Positions 41,806 through 48,301 of a stretch of 64,000 nucleotides of DNA are shown here, piece by piece. A program made the position numbers and the translations under genes. Position 1 is the stretch's first letter, and each line of letters starts with the position of its first letter. The notes under the pieces are model-generated. The model had not been told where the DNA came from, did no database searches, and saw only the letters and a program-made list of their open reading frames with translations. Source of the stretch: Haloactinopolyspora alba (GTDB lineage: Bacteria; Actinomycetota; Actinomycetes; Jiangellales; Jiangellaceae); contig NZ_PYGE01000014.1 of assembly GCF_003014555.1 (NCBI RefSeq), forward strand, positions 1 to 64,000, given 5' to 3'.

Positions 41806-42408
41806 CTAGCGCAGGCGTCGCGCTCGCAGAACGGTGTCGTGGGTGTGGTGCGTGCCCGCCGGGGCAGGAGCGCTGCGGGCACGGGTCTCGTCGACCAGGA
41901 CGGTCCAGTCGTCGGCGAGCAGGGCGGCGATCTCGCTGGGCTGGTAGTAGTCGCTCGGCTCGAAGCCGTCCTCGGGGCGCGGCGGCACTTCCGCGAGGTC
42001 GTGACCGACGAACAGGAGAGTGCCGCCAGGCGCGACGGCGGCGAGCAGGCCGCGCAGCCCATCGTGGCCCGCCTGGCGCAGGAGCGGGAAGTACTGGACG
42101 GACACCAGGTCGAACGCGCCCGGCGGAGGTGGCGCGGTGGTCAGGTCGCCGTACTTCCACGCCACGCGCCCGTCGACGTCCGTCCCCGCGGCGGCAGCGC
42201 GCTGCAGAGCGACTCGGGAGATGTCGACGGCGGTGACCTGCCAGCCGCGCCGAGCCAGCCAGAGTGCGTCGGCGCCCTCACCGCACCCGACGTCGAGTGC
42301 CTGCCCTGGTGCCAGCTCGCTCACCTCGGCGACGAGCACCCCGTTGGGTTCACCGCTGAAGAGCTGGTCATGACTCTGATACCGCTCGTCCCAGAACTGT
42401 GCGTCCAT
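41806..42408 (-). CDS. Class I SAM-dependent methyltransferase (TehB-like)
   Basis: 200 residues. The SAM motif I is ALDVGCGEGADALWLARRGWQVTAVD; the motif IV region is FDLVSVQYFPLL, and VAPGGTLLFVGHDL is the post-IV strand. It starts MDAQFWDERYQSHDQLFSGEPN, a form seen in tellurite/thiol methyltransferases of the TehB type. GAGGTGAGG precedes ATG 42408. The 26-bp palindrome at 42423-42448 lies 15 bp upstream and probably controls it. Confidence 0.88.
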   Translation of the reverse strand: MDAQFWDERYQSHDQLFSGEPNGVLVAEVSELAPGQALDVGCGEGADALWLARRGWQVTAVDISRVALQRAAAAGTDVDGRVAWKYGDLTTAPPPPGAFDLVSVQYFPLLRQAGHDGLRGLLAAVAPGGTLLFVGHDLAEVPPRPEDGFEPSDYYQPSEIAALLADDWTVLVDETRARSAPAPAGTHHTHDTVLRARRLR

Positions 42409-42422
42409 GCGTGTCCTCACCT

Positions 42423-42448
42423 CGATGTCGGTTCCGGTACCAACATCG
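42423..42448. promoter_or_regulatory. Near-perfect 26-bp palindrome before the TehB-like gene
   Basis: Left half CGATGTCGGTTCC and right half GGTACCAACATCG are complementary at 11 of 13 positions. The size suits a TetR-type or similar dimeric repressor. No such repressor gene is adjacent. Confidence 0.5.
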
Positions 42449-42528
42449 CTCTCGCCCTGCGCGATCGACAAAGTTCGTTGCCAGGACGGCAAAGCAGTAA
42501 GTGTGCCAGCGCTCCCGCACAAACTGAA

Positions 42529-42582
42529 GTGCAACTCATGGGTTGCGCATCCATCCCGTGTCGTGCAACGCTGGGGTTGCAC
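42529..42582. promoter_or_regulatory. Tandem dyads, candidate ArsR operator pair
   Basis: GTGCAAC-N6-GTTGCAC occurs exactly at 42563-42582 and with one mismatch (GTTGCGC) at 42529-42548. Their centres are 34 bp apart, close to three helical turns. Both lie upstream of the SRPBCC-arsR-DUF899 operon. Confidence 0.6.
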
Positions 42583-42606
42583 ATTCCGGGAGGAAGAGGA
42601 GTCCTG

Positions 42607-43053
42607 ATGGATCTGGACCGGATCGAACGCGAGACCGTGATCGAGGCGCCCGTGGAACGGGTGTGGTCGCTGGTGACCGAACCCGGGTGGTGGGCGGCCG
42701 ATGACGCGAACCGGCCCGGCACCACCGCCGTCGAGGGCGAGTCGATGGTGGCGAAGAACGCCGAGCACGGCGACTTCCCGGTGCGGGTGGAGCAGGTCGA
42801 CCCGCCGACGTACGTGGCCTACCGCTGGGTCTCCGCGTTTCCGGGAGAGGAGCTGCGCGAGGACAACAGCACCCTGGTGGAGTTCACGCTGACCCCCGAA
42901 GGCGAGCGGACACGACTTCGGGTGGTCGAGAGCGGGTTCACCGGGCTGACCACGTCCGAGGAGAACCGCCGCAACATCATCGACGACCACACCGCCGGCT
43001 GGGCGGAGTGCCTCGACTGGCTGCACAAGCGCGCCGAACACCCGTCGGCGTGA
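42607..43053 (+). CDS. SRPBCC/AHSA1-like protein
   Basis: 148 residues of the START/Bet v 1 fold. MDLDRIERETVIEAPVERVWSLVTEPGWWAADD, a central VRVEQVDPPTYVAYRWVSAF, and a final helix AGWAECLDWLHKRAE are typical of AHSA1-type proteins. A ribosome site AGGAAGAGGAG precedes the ATG. It overlaps the arsR-type gene by GTGA, an arrangement widespread in actinobacteria. It probably binds a hydrophobic ligand; role unknown. Confidence 0.9.
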   Translation: MDLDRIERETVIEAPVERVWSLVTEPGWWAADDANRPGTTAVEGESMVAKNAEHGDFPVRVEQVDPPTYVAYRWVSAFPGEELREDNSTLVEFTLTPEGERTRLRVVESGFTGLTTSEENRRNIIDDHTAGWAECLDWLHKRAEHPSA

Positions 43054-43397
43054 CGGACGGACCACTCGGTGGCGGCGAGGACACCGTGGACAGCGTCATC
43101 GCCGCGCTGGCCGACTCGACCCGACGCCAGTTGCTCGACCTACTCTCCGAGCAGGGCGAGGCCACCGCCACCACGCTCGCCGAACGGATGCCCGTCTCAC
43201 GGCAGGCCGTGGTGAAGCACCTCGCCGTCCTCGACGCCGCCGGGCTGGTGACCGCCAACCGGGCCGGACGCGAGGTGCGCTACACCGTCCAGCCGGCCGC
43301 ACTGGCGCGGACGGCGCAGTGGATGGCCGCGCGCGCGGCTGCCTGGGACCAACGGCTGGCGAGGATCAAACGGATCGCCGAGCTGGACTCGAACTAG
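43050..43397 (+). CDS. ArsR-family winged-helix regulator
   Basis: 115 residues. VIAALADSTRRQLLDLLSEQGEATATTLAERMPVSRQAVVKHLAVLDAAGLVTANRAGREVRYTVQP is a full ArsR HTH. No CxxC or other canonical metal-binding pattern is present, so the ligand is probably not a metal. GTG 43050 overlaps the SRPBCC stop; GTG 43086, with GAGG before it, is an alternative that would remove 12 residues. It likely represses its own operon through the tandem dyads at 42529-42582. Confidence 0.9.
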   Translation: MTDGPLGGGEDTVDSVIAALADSTRRQLLDLLSEQGEATATTLAERMPVSRQAVVKHLAVLDAAGLVTANRAGREVRYTVQPAALARTAQWMAARAAAWDQRLARIKRIAELDSN

Positions 43398-43424: not shown

Positions 43425-44162
43425 GTGAACACCGACACGAGCACACCGGCGCCCCGAGTCGCCGATCGCGCCACCTACCAGGCCGAGATGGACGCACTGC
43501 GGATCCGGGAGAAAGCGCACACCCACGAAGGAGACGCGATCGCTGCGGCTCGCCGACGGCTTCCGATGGTGGAGGTGGACGCCGCCGCCGAGCTGACCGG
43601 CCCGAACGGCCGGACCACGTTGCTGGAGGCCTTCGAGGGCCGCCGGCAGTTGATCGCCTACTTCCAGATGTGGCACACCGGCCAATCAGCAGCCGAACAG
43701 TGCGAAGGGTGCACCTTCTTCAACAGTCAGGTCCGCGAGCTGTCCTACCTGCACGCACGCGACGTCACGTACGCGACGTTCTGCCAGGGGCCGTACGAGG
43801 AGAGCGTCCGCTACCGCGACTTCATGGGCTGGGACGTGCCCTGGTACTCCGTGACGGAGTCGATCGAGGCGCTGATGGCGGGCCGCGGCCCGTTCATGCT
43901 GGCGTGCTACGTGCGGCAAGACGACCGGGTCTTCGAGACGTACTGGACCACCGGCCGCGGTGTCGAGGTGATGGACCAGACGTTGGGTCTGCTCGACCGC
44001 ACCGTGTACGGGCGACAGGAGCCGTGGGAGGACTCGCCCGCCGGCTGGCCGCAGGACCCCGACCACGCAACGTGGCGCACCGACGGTCGGCCCACCGCCC
44101 AGTGGTCCCGCCTCCGAGCCGGACGGTCCGACGACCTCGGCGTCGTCGAACGCACCAGCTGA
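43425..44162 (+). CDS. DUF899 family thioredoxin-like protein
   Basis: 245 residues. It contains RVADRATYQAEMDALRIREKAHTHEGDAIAAARRRLPMVEV, then LLEAFEGRRQLIAYFQMWH and EQCEGCTFFNSQVRELSYLHARDVTYATFCQG, where CEGC is the thioredoxin-like CxxC. The C-terminus EPWEDSPAGWPQDPDHATWRTDGRPT is conserved with the first DUF899 protein at 33038. AGAAGGGGA precedes GTG 43425. It is the last gene of the SRPBCC-arsR operon. Confidence 0.9.
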   Translation: MNTDTSTPAPRVADRATYQAEMDALRIREKAHTHEGDAIAAARRRLPMVEVDAAAELTGPNGRTTLLEAFEGRRQLIAYFQMWHTGQSAAEQCEGCTFFNSQVRELSYLHARDVTYATFCQGPYEESVRYRDFMGWDVPWYSVTESIEALMAGRGPFMLACYVRQDDRVFETYWTTGRGVEVMDQTLGLLDRTVYGRQEPWEDSPAGWPQDPDHATWRTDGRPTAQWSRLRAGRSDDLGVVERTS

Positions 44163-45520: not shown

Positions 45521-48130
45521 TCACTGCGCCATGTCGACGAAGCGGCTGTAGTGGCCCTGGAACGCCACGGTGATGGTGGCGGTGGGGCCGTTACGGTGCT
45601 TGGCGACGATGAAGTCCGCTTCACCGGCCCGCGGCGACTCCTTCTCGTAGGCGTCCTCACGATGCAGAAGTAGGACCATGTCCGCGTCCTGCTCAATCGA
45701 TCCCGATTCCCTCAAATCGGACAACATGGGCTTCTTGTCCTGCCGTTGTTCAGGACCGCGGTTGAGCTGACTCATCGCGATGACCGGGACATCCAGCTCT
45801 TTGGCCAGGAGCTTCAGCGCCCGGGAGAACTCCGAGACCTCCTGCTGGCGGCTCTCCACGCGCTTGCCGCTGGACATCAGCTGCAGGTAGTCGATGATGA
45901 TCAGCCGGAGATCGTTGCGCTGCTTGAGCCGGCGGCACTTGGCGCGGATCTCCATCATGGTCATGTTCGGTGAATCGTCGATGTACAGCGGCGCGCTGGA
46001 CACCTCGCCGGTGCTGCGGGCGATGCGGTTCCAGTCGTCGTCGGTCATCTGGCCGGAACGCATGTGGTGCAGCGGGACCTTGGCCTCGGCGGACAACAGC
46101 CGCATGGTGATCTCGTTGCGGCTCATCTCCAGCGAGAAGATCACCGAGGCCAGACCGTGCTTGATCGACGCCGCCCGCGCCACGTCCAGACCCAGGGTCG
46201 AATTGTGTGTCGGCACGAAGGAGCGTCCGGCGAGGTAGAGGTGATCGTGCGCCGCAACTTGCACACATCGAACGGGGACCGACGGAACCGGTCGTACGTC
46301 CACGACGGTGCGCGACATCGGTCCTTCGCCGACCCGTACGCGGTCAGCCTTGCGGCGCAGCCGGAAGACCTGATCACGTGGCGTGAACGTGATGCAGTAC
46401 GAGGTCGATGATGCCTCGTGGCGGCCACGCACCGGCTTGGTGGTCAACTGTGCGCGATAGCCGAGGGACTGAATCAGCTCGAGCGTGTCTCTTGCGAGTC
46501 GCTCGCTGGTGACCGCGAACTGAACGACTCCATTGGAGTTCACGTAGCCGTCGGTGTCGAGCAGACCGGCAAGCAGAGCTTTACGTTGAGCGATCGAAGC
46601 TCGCAGATACTCGGCCGGAATGTGCTTGTTCCCGAGGACACCCATCGTACGCAGCACGGCCTGGACGGTCCCGTGCCGGGAATGGTCCTGGCCGGGTATC
46701 TCCGGGTCGTCGGAAGTGAACCGCGCCGCATCGGCATGACCATCGCCCAGCCACACGCCAAGCGCGTACGGCGGCATCGGAAGGTCGAGATCCGGTAGGT
46801 CGACCGCACCGGCCAATCGGACAGTGTGGTTCAACCGGCTGTCGCCGGACTGACATCGCAGCGTTCGGGCCATCTCCGCTGTCGTGACGACGCCACTGTG
46901 GTCGGCAGCATGTCCGGCACCGACCGGCCGTGAAACTCGCGACGCGAGCTCACGCAGCAGTGCTCGGCGAGAGTAGACGGGCGCGTGCCACCCGTACGAC
47001 CTTCGTGCGCCGGCGACCCGACGCGGAGCGCGGCGCCCGGATCCGACCGTCTGCACCGCGCCGTGAATCGCGTGTGCAAACTCGCTTCCTGCCTCTTCCA
47101 CGGCCTCTGCAGCCGTGATCACCCGGTCCGACTCACGCTCTGATCGATCCGCGATCGCACACACACGCTGCACCGCCTCGCGCGCCCAGTAGTAACGGGG
47201 CTGGCGACGCTCGGACGCCGCCTTCCGGCTGGCCCGGGTGGATGTCGCCCACTGATGCTCGGCGTCGGCCACGATGACCGTCCCGTCCGAGAACTCGACC
47301 TCGTAACAGGGACGGCCATGCATGACGTCGGTCGCGGCCACCACCCGAGTCGGCCGCCCGTCGGCCCCGAAGAGGTTGTCGCCGACCTGAACGTCGCCCA
47401 TGGTCGTCCACCCTGTGGGGGTCGGAAGAGGCGTGTCCAGCGCCAACGCCTTGCCAACGGCAGGTCGCGCCGCCAGGATGACCATCTGCCCGGGGTGCAG
47501 CCCGTTGGTCAGCGCGTCCATGTCGGCGAAACCGGTGGGAACGCCGACCATCTGCCCGCCGCGGGACCCGATGGCCTCGATCTCGTCGAGAGCGCCCTCC
47601 ATGATCTCGGACAACGGGAGGTAGTCCTCGTTCGCCCGGCGCTCGGTAACGGCGTAGACCTCGGCCTGAGCACGGTCGACGATGTCGTCCGCGTCGCCGT
47701 CGTCGCCGTAGCCGAGCTGGACGATGCGGGTGCCGGCCTCGACCAGGCGGCGCAGGATGGCCCGTTCGCGGACGATCTCGGCGTAGAACGCGGCGTTGGC
47801 CGCCGACGGCACCGACGAGACCAGCGTGTGCAGGTAAGGCGCGCCGCCGACCCGGCCGATCTCACCGCTCTTCTGCAGCTGCGCGGCGACCGTGACCGCG
47901 TCGGCCGGCTCGCCGCGGCCGTACAGATCGATGACAGCTTCGTAGATGGCCTCGTGCGCGGGCCGGTAGAAGTCGTGGCCGCGCAGGATCTCGACCACAT
48001 CGGCCACGGCGTCCTTCGACAGCAGCATGCCGCCCAGCACGGACTGTTCGGCGGCGACGTCCTGCGGCGGCGTGCGCCCGCGCTCCGCGGGTGGCTCATC
48101 GTGCCGATCGGGCAGCTCCGTGACGCTCAC
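45521..48130 (-). CDS. dnaB: Replicative DNA helicase DnaB, interrupted by an intein
   Basis: The hexameric helicase at the replication fork. After removal of the 416-residue intein the extein is about 453 residues, normal for DnaB. The N-terminal domain begins PPQDVAAEQSVLGGMLLSKDAVADVVEILRG. Walker A is ARPAVGK|S, split by the intein between Lys and Ser. Walker B is LRLIIIDYLQLMSS, and the C-terminus shows VPVIAMSQLNRGPEQR and SGSIEQDADMVLLLHR. GTG 48130 is preferred; ATG 48163 upstream in frame would add 11 residues. Splicing must occur for helicase activity because the P-loop is broken. A DnaA-box cluster lies upstream. Confidence 0.96.
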   Translation of the reverse strand: MSVTELPDRHDEPPAERGRTPPQDVAAEQSVLGGMLLSKDAVADVVEILRGHDFYRPAHEAIYEAVIDLYGRGEPADAVTVAAQLQKSGEIGRVGGAPYLHTLVSSVPSAANAAFYAEIVRERAILRRLVEAGTRIVQLGYGDDGDADDIVDRAQAEVYAVTERRANEDYLPLSEIMEGALDEIEAIGSRGGQMVGVPTGFADMDALTNGLHPGQMVILAARPAVGKALALDTPLPTPTGWTTMGDVQVGDNLFGADGRPTRVVAATDVMHGRPCYEVEFSDGTVIVADAEHQWATSTRASRKAASERRQPRYYWAREAVQRVCAIADRSERESDRVITAAEAVEEAGSEFAHAIHGAVQTVGSGRRAPRRVAGARRSYGWHAPVYSRRALLRELASRVSRPVGAGHAADHSGVVTTAEMARTLRCQSGDSRLNHTVRLAGAVDLPDLDLPMPPYALGVWLGDGHADAARFTSDDPEIPGQDHSRHGTVQAVLRTMGVLGNKHIPAEYLRASIAQRKALLAGLLDTDGYVNSNGVVQFAVTSERLARDTLELIQSLGYRAQLTTKPVRGRHEASSTSYCITFTPRDQVFRLRRKADRVRVGEGPMSRTVVDVRPVPSVPVRCVQVAAHDHLYLAGRSFVPTHNSTLGLDVARAASIKHGLASVIFSLEMSRNEITMRLLSAEAKVPLHHMRSGQMTDDDWNRIARSTGEVSSAPLYIDDSPNMTMMEIRAKCRRLKQRNDLRLIIIDYLQLMSSGKRVESRQQEVSEFSRALKLLAKELDVPVIAMSQLNRGPEQRQDKKPMLSDLRESGSIEQDADMVLLLHREDAYEKESPRAGEADFIVAKHRNGPTATITVAFQGHYSRFVDMAQ
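46202..47449 (-). mobile_element. DnaB intein with class 3 marks and a LAGLIDADG homing endonuclease
   Basis: 416 residues inserted in the P-loop. The first residue is Ala (ALALDTP), not Cys/Ser. The C-terminus is FVPTHN followed by the extein Ser. The class 3 Trp-Cys-Thr triplet is present: Trp67 two residues after the block B His (AEHQW), Cys395 in block F (VRCVQV), and Thr414 in block G (VPTHN). Two LAGLIDADG motifs (LGVWLGDGH near 230 and LLAGLLDTDGY near 292-302) mark a homing endonuclease. In class 3 inteins the block F Cys makes the first branched intermediate. Boundaries follow exactly from DnaB alignment. Confidence 0.93.
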
Positions 48131-48301
48131 CAGACCCCCATTCGACGACGACCTCGCGGCCATACACGTGTTCTAACAGGCGCCACCGACAAGACCCCGT
48201 GCATCGACGACGGCACCGGCAGCCGGTACGGACTGACGTCGAACGTACGGCTGATCGGGAACCCGCACCAAGCCTGCCACGCACATCCCCTGTGGGCGGC
48301 C

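Follow-up and report, generated by a model that had tools for sequence, protein, structure and literature searches.

The stretch of DNA analysed here, called the window, comprises 64,000 nucleotides of the genome of Haloactinopolyspora alba. Three genes follow one another on its plus strand: an SRPBCC gene of the AHSA1 type (PF08327, 148 aa; 42607–43053), an ArsR gene (115 aa; 43050–43397), assigned by profile matches (HTH_20/HTH_5, NCBIfam NF033788) and overlapping the first by 4 bases, and a DUF899 gene (PF05988, 245 aa; 43425–44162). A purine-rich stretch, GGAGGAAGAGGAG (42589–42601, plus strand), precedes the SRPBCC start and would, judged by its sequence, serve ribosome binding. Upstream, the minus strand carries a methyltransferase gene with its start at 42408, which makes the region divergent. 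Between the two starts lie the features of interest, two predicted operator dyads on the plus strand that are kept in relatives: dyad 1 (GTGCAACTCATGGGTTGCGC, 42529–42548; half-sites GCAAC at 42531–42535 and GTTGC at 42542–42546) and dyad 2 (GTGCAACGCTGGGGTTGCAC, 42563–42582; half-sites GCAAC at 42565–42569 and GTTGC at 42576–42580). The SRPBCC ATG (42607) is situated 25–78 bp downstream of the two.

An earlier note on this DNA had reported a duplicated dyad, GTGCAAC-N6-GTTGCAC, with its copies 34 bp apart and placed upstream of an SRPBCC-ArsR-DUF899 operon. The duplication is indeed there, dyad 2 being perfect and dyad 1 deviating by one mismatch, in that it ends in GTTGCGC. As to the operon, the SRPBCC-ArsR part recurs in relatives, while the DUF899 part was found in one other scanned locus (L128, where the gene lies downstream of ArsR as in the window, with 68% identity and a spacing of 25) and was absent from beside ArsR in every other locus scanned up to L131; DUF899 is an occasional passenger outside the conserved core.

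The ArsR protein scored 73.2 bits against the ArsR/SmtB family model NF033788 (cut-off 55) and stayed below the cut-offs of the SdpR-type autorepressor model NF033789 (55.7 against 100) and of the CmtR model (50.1 against 150). Its recognition helix is encoded by the codons for R51, Q52, A53, V54, V55, K56 and H57 (43200–43220, plus strand; numbered from the GTG at 43050). The protein contains no cysteine, its single histidine is H57 within this helix, and cysteine or histidine ligands at alpha3, alpha5 or the termini, where metal sensors carry them, were looked for in it and not found; the remark in the earlier note that known metal motifs are lacking was thus borne out, and a metal or thiol signal is therefore unlikely. 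The protein is 77% and 71% identical to ArsR proteins of other families (L058 and L063) versus 62% to the copy from its own genus, which suggests horizontal transfer. Elsewhere in the window, an 880-aa DnaB-like reading frame (45521–48163, minus strand) appears, by eye in the translation, to contain an intein-like insertion.

Conservation of the Dyad Pair

A search of the motif through the 5.54-Mb genome, as the earlier note had proposed, found the core GCAAC-N6-GTTGC in four exact copies, two of which are the dyad pair, with none in the reversed control. With the 14-base pattern and 0–1 mismatch, dyads 1 and 2 were the sole sites, and a third site that would indicate a regulon outside the operon was looked for in this genome at the same stringency and not found. 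At up to 3 mismatches the pattern was not enriched, either in the window (5 found, 3.3 expected) or in the whole genome (133, against 158 in the reversed control). The other two exact cores (G000:C7:63792-63807 and G000:C32:16046-16061) are single dyads, and may be further targets or chance occurrences.

A scan of named genomes with the single ArsR sequence gave at least 4 loci, and a family set of 32 loci, the locus of the window among them, was fetched with the ArsR sequence from its own genus and family. The N6 dyad pair was present in 18 of the 32, the window included, always upstream of an SRPBCC gene and with the dyads 34 bp (15 loci) or 33 bp (3 loci) apart; in the alignment of these 18 loci the bases around and between the dyads vary and the dyads are kept. 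The remaining 14 comprised two distant ArsR loci of the window's genome (L003 and L004) and 12 paralogues, ten of which had tandem dyads built from this half-site around N5 instead of N6 (perfect in 8 of the 10), one a weak GTAAC pair (L030) and one no pair (L026). Perfect N5 pairs, counted over all loci at that stage, occurred in 19 loci, at 45 bp (13), 46 bp (5) and 35 bp (1).

The approach was then reversed by searching for the motif only, with the ArsR gene left out of the query. When distances of 31–37 bp were allowed, the pair appeared in 27 of 393 genomes of the class, once in each, versus 1 genome in the reversed control, and the distances were 33 bp (13) or 34 bp (14), with no others. 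Widening the range to 17–47 bp raised the number to 49 of 393, again with one pair per genome and with the same single genome in the control; the further 22 pairs were at 25 bp (3), 28 bp (5), 29 bp (2), 45 bp (1), 46 bp (9) and 47 bp (2). On inspection of all 49 places, 47 proved to have an ArsR gene that is read away from the pair, at a distance of up to 1.9 kb in 46 of these and of 2.6 kb in the last (G282), in whose operon ArsR is preceded by a double SRPBCC gene and by an RRXRR-HNH (IscB-like) gene. Of the 47, 45 have an SRPBCC gene between the pair and ArsR, preceded in two (G217 and G008) by an MFS gene as the first of the operon, and in the other two (L130 and L131) ArsR and SRPBCC form a single protein. 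One of the two remaining pairs (G140) was rejected as a chance occurrence, being located inside an RNase J gene. The other (G177) lies upstream of an MFS gene with no ArsR nearby; the SRPBCC-ArsR operon of that genome is on another contig and carries a separate pair, spaced 33 bp and with one deviating base.

An RRXRR-HNH (IscB-like) gene was recorded at L094:3-1613 (minus strand), between the SRPBCC and ArsR genes of its operon. The same double operator heads MFS genes at L092 and L143 (G177), L093 (G217) and L116 (G008), once unlinked from ArsR, and the occurrence of such genes under these operators in three genomes (G008, G177 and G217) suggests the export of something.

Spacing of the Dyads and the Putative Core Promoter

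The spacing of the dyads is best read together with the putative promoter. In the class of pairs at 33 or 34 bp (28 loci, namely the 27 from the 31–37 bp motif search plus L033), the third base of N6 is T in 27/28 loci for dyad 2 and in 2/28 for dyad 1, the mirror-image A is found in dyad 2 in 2/28, and a T stands directly before GCAAC in 27/28 for dyad 2 and in 18/28 for dyad 1, these being counts over related genomes, 14 of the 28 from the window's own family, so that they overstate independence. The conserved T was also found in five other GTDB families and in PHSC20C1; one relative of the class (L083) is without it. As the T of dyad 2 rarely has a mirror A and is rare in dyad 1, it is not an operator feature. 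The non-symmetric TG-C-AANNNT of dyad 2 rather looks like an extended -10 element, and the hexamer beginning with TTGC in dyad 1, 17 bp (33-bp class) or 18 bp (34-bp class) upstream, looks like the -35 element. Transferred to the window, whose helix of the RQA..K type, two GCAAC-N6 dyads within the 33/34-bp spacing and TG-C-AANNNT at dyad 2 place it in this tandem-operator clade, the putative -35 element would be TTGCGC in the right arm of dyad 1 (42543–42548, plus strand), at the conserved 17/18-bp distance from the -10 candidate, and the putative extended -10 would be TGC-AACGCT in the left half of dyad 2 (42564–42572, plus strand), with the last T kept in 27/28 loci. The 33/34-bp spacing puts TTGCGC 17–18 bp from the extended -10, so the operators would lie on the promoter itself. 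The hexamer AACGCT is missing the usual first T, and a scan of 42400–42620 with the sigma-70 consensus returned no promoter.

The other spacing classes support this placement of operators on promoter elements. In the 25–29 bp class, dyad 1 is preceded by TTGAC, with TANNNT 17/18 bp further on, in 10/10 loci. In the 46/47 bp class, TNNNNT is found 17 bp (46) or 18 bp (47) after the TTGC arm in 11/11 loci, with the form TANNNT in 6 of the 11, and dyad 2 falls at the ribosome-binding site, in many cases as GCAACCAGGAGGTTGC immediately followed by ATATG (L117–L126 and L141). The pattern fails in the sole locus with 49 bp (L088), where TNNNNT is absent at both 17 and 18 bp.

The earlier note had explained the spacing differently, as near three helical turns, so that two ArsR dimers would sit on the same face of the DNA and repress cooperatively. 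According to this explanation, the spacing was selected for contact between the touching dimers; it is supported by how tight the spacing is in the clade (33 or 34 bp in 27/27), and cooperativity has been proposed for Rv2034, but between the half-sites of one dyad (PMC3338718). However, 34 bp amounts to 3.24 turns at 10.5 bp per turn, about a quarter turn off, and related ArsR genes have their tandem dyads spaced 25 to 37, 40, 45–47 and 49 bp, which covers all helical phases. As a general rule, same-face phasing was rejected once free spacing in the motif-only search had given 25 to 47 bp. Within the window's own clade, the tight 33/34 bp is explained equally by a 17/18-bp spacer between -35 and -10. 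Selection for contact between dimers is therefore improbable, and the 34 bp would reflect the -35/-10 spacing of the promoter rather than a rule of helical phase.

ArsR as the Probable Binder and a Proposed Helix-to-Base Code

Loci were collected by protein, with the half-site left free, and tandem dyads were found with the helix RQA in 53 of 58, all of them GCAAC (the other 5 had no tandem pair), and with the helix RQS in 27 of 29, of which 25 were GCAGC and 2 GCAAC; shuffled upstreams gave a tandem pair in 21 of 1780.

The comparison was extended to 236 loci collected protein-first (207 distinct upstreams), using a dyad caller that was blind to the code. It called a dyad in 148 of them, and in 234 of 2070 shuffled upstreams. 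The called dyads sort by helix: RQA..K goes with GCAAC (47/51), RQS..K with GCAGC (24/29), RQS..Q with GCAGG (14/17) and RQS..E likewise (3/3), RPA..Q with GTAAG (7/7), RPA..R with GTAAC (6/7), RFG..K with GTGAC (7/7), FAA..K with ACAAC (4/4), MPA..R with TTAAC (3/3) and RQA..Q with GCAAG (2/2). Mutual information between helix residues 50–59 and the bases had its maxima at residue 51 with base 1 (0.58), 52 with base 2 (0.39), 53 with base 4 (0.46) and 56 with base 5 (0.48). From these data four rules may be proposed: residue 51 would set base 1 (Arg for G, others for T or A), residue 52 base 2 (Gln for C; Pro, Phe or Tyr for T), residue 53 base 4 (Ala or Gly for A, Ser for G) and residue 56 base 5 (Lys or Arg for C, Gln or Glu for G). 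All four hold in 127 of the 148 loci, which are related, so that the counts are not independent events; permuting the helices among the loci gave a mean of 26.7 and a maximum of 42 in 1000 permutations. The 21 loci that disagree are about the number of false dyads expected from the 11% shuffle rate. By helix type, 17 of 24 agree with the code, and the other 7 rest on one dyad each.

A first version of the code was written down before 43 predictions were made, these coming from 60 newly fetched family stretches and 11 earlier loci with repeats dropped. The outcome was 12 hits, 1 other half-site and 30 loci without a dyad of the eight code types at up to one mismatch. Among the hits, 7 of the 8 with GTAAG were of the already-known RPA..Q type (the eighth, L261, is RPG..Q), L151 duplicates L003, and one mismatch had to be allowed for L282 and L289, whose real base 1 is T with Ala at 51. 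In many of the 30 dyad-less predictions residue 51 is not Arg, which lay outside the first version, and in three SRPBCC-first loci (L143, L149 and L030) the wrong stretch had been scanned. The code received its rules on residue 51, Arg56 and Phe/Tyr52 only once this output was known, and the agreement in 127 of 148 is therefore partly a fit. Fits are also found outside the combinations used to state the code, namely RQA..Q with GCAAG (L154 and L160), LPS..Q with TTAGG (L156, which fits except at base 1) and RPS..E with GTAGG (L240, missed by the stricter dyad caller). Other RPS..E loci had no dyad (L004, L267, L271 and L283) or an unrelated one (L269), RPA..K and RPG..K showed unrelated dyads, one each, against the code, and the distant L003-like loci were mostly without tandem pairs.

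Some further arrangements were seen in passing. ArsR genes of the RQS..Q and RQS..E types (L202–L204, L210, L213, L214 and L217–L219; also L198) often have a single perfect dyad of the TGCAGG-N6-CCTGCA type, in L211 (RQS..E) two GCAGG dyads form a pair spaced 28 bp, and three loci with the helix RPAVSRHLR (L250, L251 and L257) show an even closer tandem, their GTAAC dyads being spaced about 16 bp.

The motif-only search that leads to ArsR genes, the covariation of helix and half-site, and an operator geometry like that of Rv2034 (see below) together make the assignment of both dyads to the operon's own ArsR, as the earlier note had it, well supported, although binding by a paralogue of this ArsR would in principle be conceivable. 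That the dyads serve another regulator, for instance one of the methyltransferase gene, is suggested by the divergent layout with the start at 42408, but tblastn found this methyltransferase in the window's locus only, among the 32 family loci, whereas the dyads follow ArsR genes and the half-site letters track the ArsR helix, which leaves this explanation very unlikely. Even less credible is an action of the dyads as RNA hairpins, in an attenuator or terminator: a scan for terminator-like structures did pick up dyad 1 on the minus strand (one hit, where shuffles predict 0.1), but the stem has 5 pairs with 3 G-C, dyad 1 lies upstream of the presumed operon start, and the letters of the arms are fixed rather than merely paired, and vary along with the ArsR helix. 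That the pair arose by chance duplication in a G+C-rich promoter, with which the lack of enrichment at 3 mismatches would agree, is refuted by conservation, the pair being kept in 18 of 32 family loci and in 27 of 393 class genomes, and two of the four exact cores of the genome, against none in the reversed control, being located here.

The dyads are thus very probably autoregulatory operators of ArsR, set on the core promoter, through which bound ArsR would shut off its own operon. One ArsR dimer would bind each GCAAC-N6-GTTGC dyad by the recognition helix R51-Q52-A53-x-x-K56. Dyad 1 would provide the -35 and dyad 2 the extended -10 together with the start region, and since the dyads would be superimposed on the core promoter, ArsR on both would cover the -35, the -10 and the start and exclude RNA polymerase, leaving SRPBCC-ArsR (and DUF899) off. 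Release from the dyads would be brought about by a non-metal small molecule.

The SRPBCC Protein and the Signal

In the RQS branch, and in the RQA members L130 and L131, ArsR and SRPBCC are encoded as a single protein, the SRPBCC half being in the same frame in 32/32 frames examined (31 loci, as L130 and L185 are one place). Such a fusion, L003, is found in the window's own genome and has 266 aa with HTH_20 at 8–58 and AHSA1 at 116–254; L131 is alike. What are two genes in the window are one fused gene in relatives, which points to a working partnership of ArsR and SRPBCC and suggests the SRPBCC protein, separate in the window, as the sensor partner of ArsR. Because the related branch has the fusion under the same kind of tandem operator, SRPBCC is also the candidate holder of the signal; that it both holds the releasing small molecule and partners ArsR is put forward tentatively.

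The AlphaFold model of the SRPBCC protein (mean pLDDT 91) has a START/AHSA1 fold, and a fold search matched START/AHSA1 proteins, including AHSA1-like proteins, CalU16, DynU16 and ZhuI. Proteins of this fold often hold hydrophobic small molecules. In the PDB, sequence relatives of the SRPBCC or the DUF899 protein were searched for at E 0.001 and none was found.

The L003 gene (G000:C11, about 106190), with the helix RQSVSKHL, constitutes a second tandem-dyad system of the window's genome, with two GCAGC-N6-GCTGC dyads 29 bp apart and the elements TTGACA and TAATTT.

Relation to Known Systems

Paired operator sites are known from SmtB, and the metal sensors SmtB, CzrA and NmtR, like the protein of the window, are winged-helix ArsR dimers acting on inverted repeats in promoters, with more than one operator site known; they have metal ligands, whereas the window ArsR is without them. 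The closest PDB chain by profile, the ArsR-family protein 2OQG (E 3.4e-29), belongs by sequence to the same clade, with the helix RQAIAKHL, and is annotated in the search result as a possible regulator only; we know of no DNA or ligand for it.

Among the nearest described systems is the Rv2034-Rv2035-Rv2036 operon of Mycobacterium tuberculosis, in which the ArsR protein Rv2034 is an autorepressor beside the SRPBCC-type Rv2035 (Polyketide_cyc2), and whose operator was footprinted as CCGTAAGT-N4-ACTTACGG, i.e., GTAAG-N6-CTTAC (PMC3338718). As in that kind of module, the SRPBCC gene of the window adjoins the ArsR gene and a 5-6-5 inverted repeat lies upstream of the operon, the geometry being the same (GTAAG-N6-CTTAC versus GCAAC-N6-GTTGC). 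The Rv2034 system has one dyad and ArsR first, in contrast to two dyads, other half-site letters and SRPBCC first in the window, and Rv2034 has a Cys61, which was tested there, where the window ArsR has no cysteine (PMC3338718). When up to one mismatch was allowed, 8 of 78 genomes of one genus contained the Rv2034 pattern (3 exact; reversed control 4 of 78), and all 8 sites adjoin an ArsR gene with the helix RPAVSQHL. The proposed code reads RPA..Q as GTAAG, which fits the footprinted operator.

In M. smegmatis, the ArsR gene of the pair MSMEG_6762-MSMEG_6760 is co-transcribed with a gene of SRPBCC fold, in a paper that deals with cell death on overexpression (PMC9416677); the available part of its text contained neither of the terms looked for, "palindrome" and "binding site". 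The structure 3UID, returned by the SRPBCC fold search, is Ms6760 (MSMEG_6760). In a search of an open library, covering titles and abstract openings, none of the papers listed dealt with an SRPBCC-linked ArsR with such tandem operators.

Significance

A tandem operator is ordinary for an ArsR system, and its merging with the promoter is neat; the code and the fusions are the parts worth testing. The balance of the comparisons moderately favours a wider picture, in which actinobacterial non-metal ArsR proteins would read their operators by a near one-residue-one-base code, and their SRPBCC branch would use tandem operators merged with the promoter and SRPBCC, separate or fused, as the sensor. 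Many ArsR proteins are without metal ligands, and for most of these no target or signal is known. If the code is true, the operator and part of the regulon would become predictable from the protein alone for many uncharacterised repressors, and orthogonal repressor-operator pairs could be built. The MFS transporters in some of these operons, unlinked in one genome, hint at the export or detoxification of a small molecule, and the ArsR-SRPBCC fusions offer a testable idea of where a small molecule may bind. For the window itself, the dyad becomes a specific, testable candidate operator.
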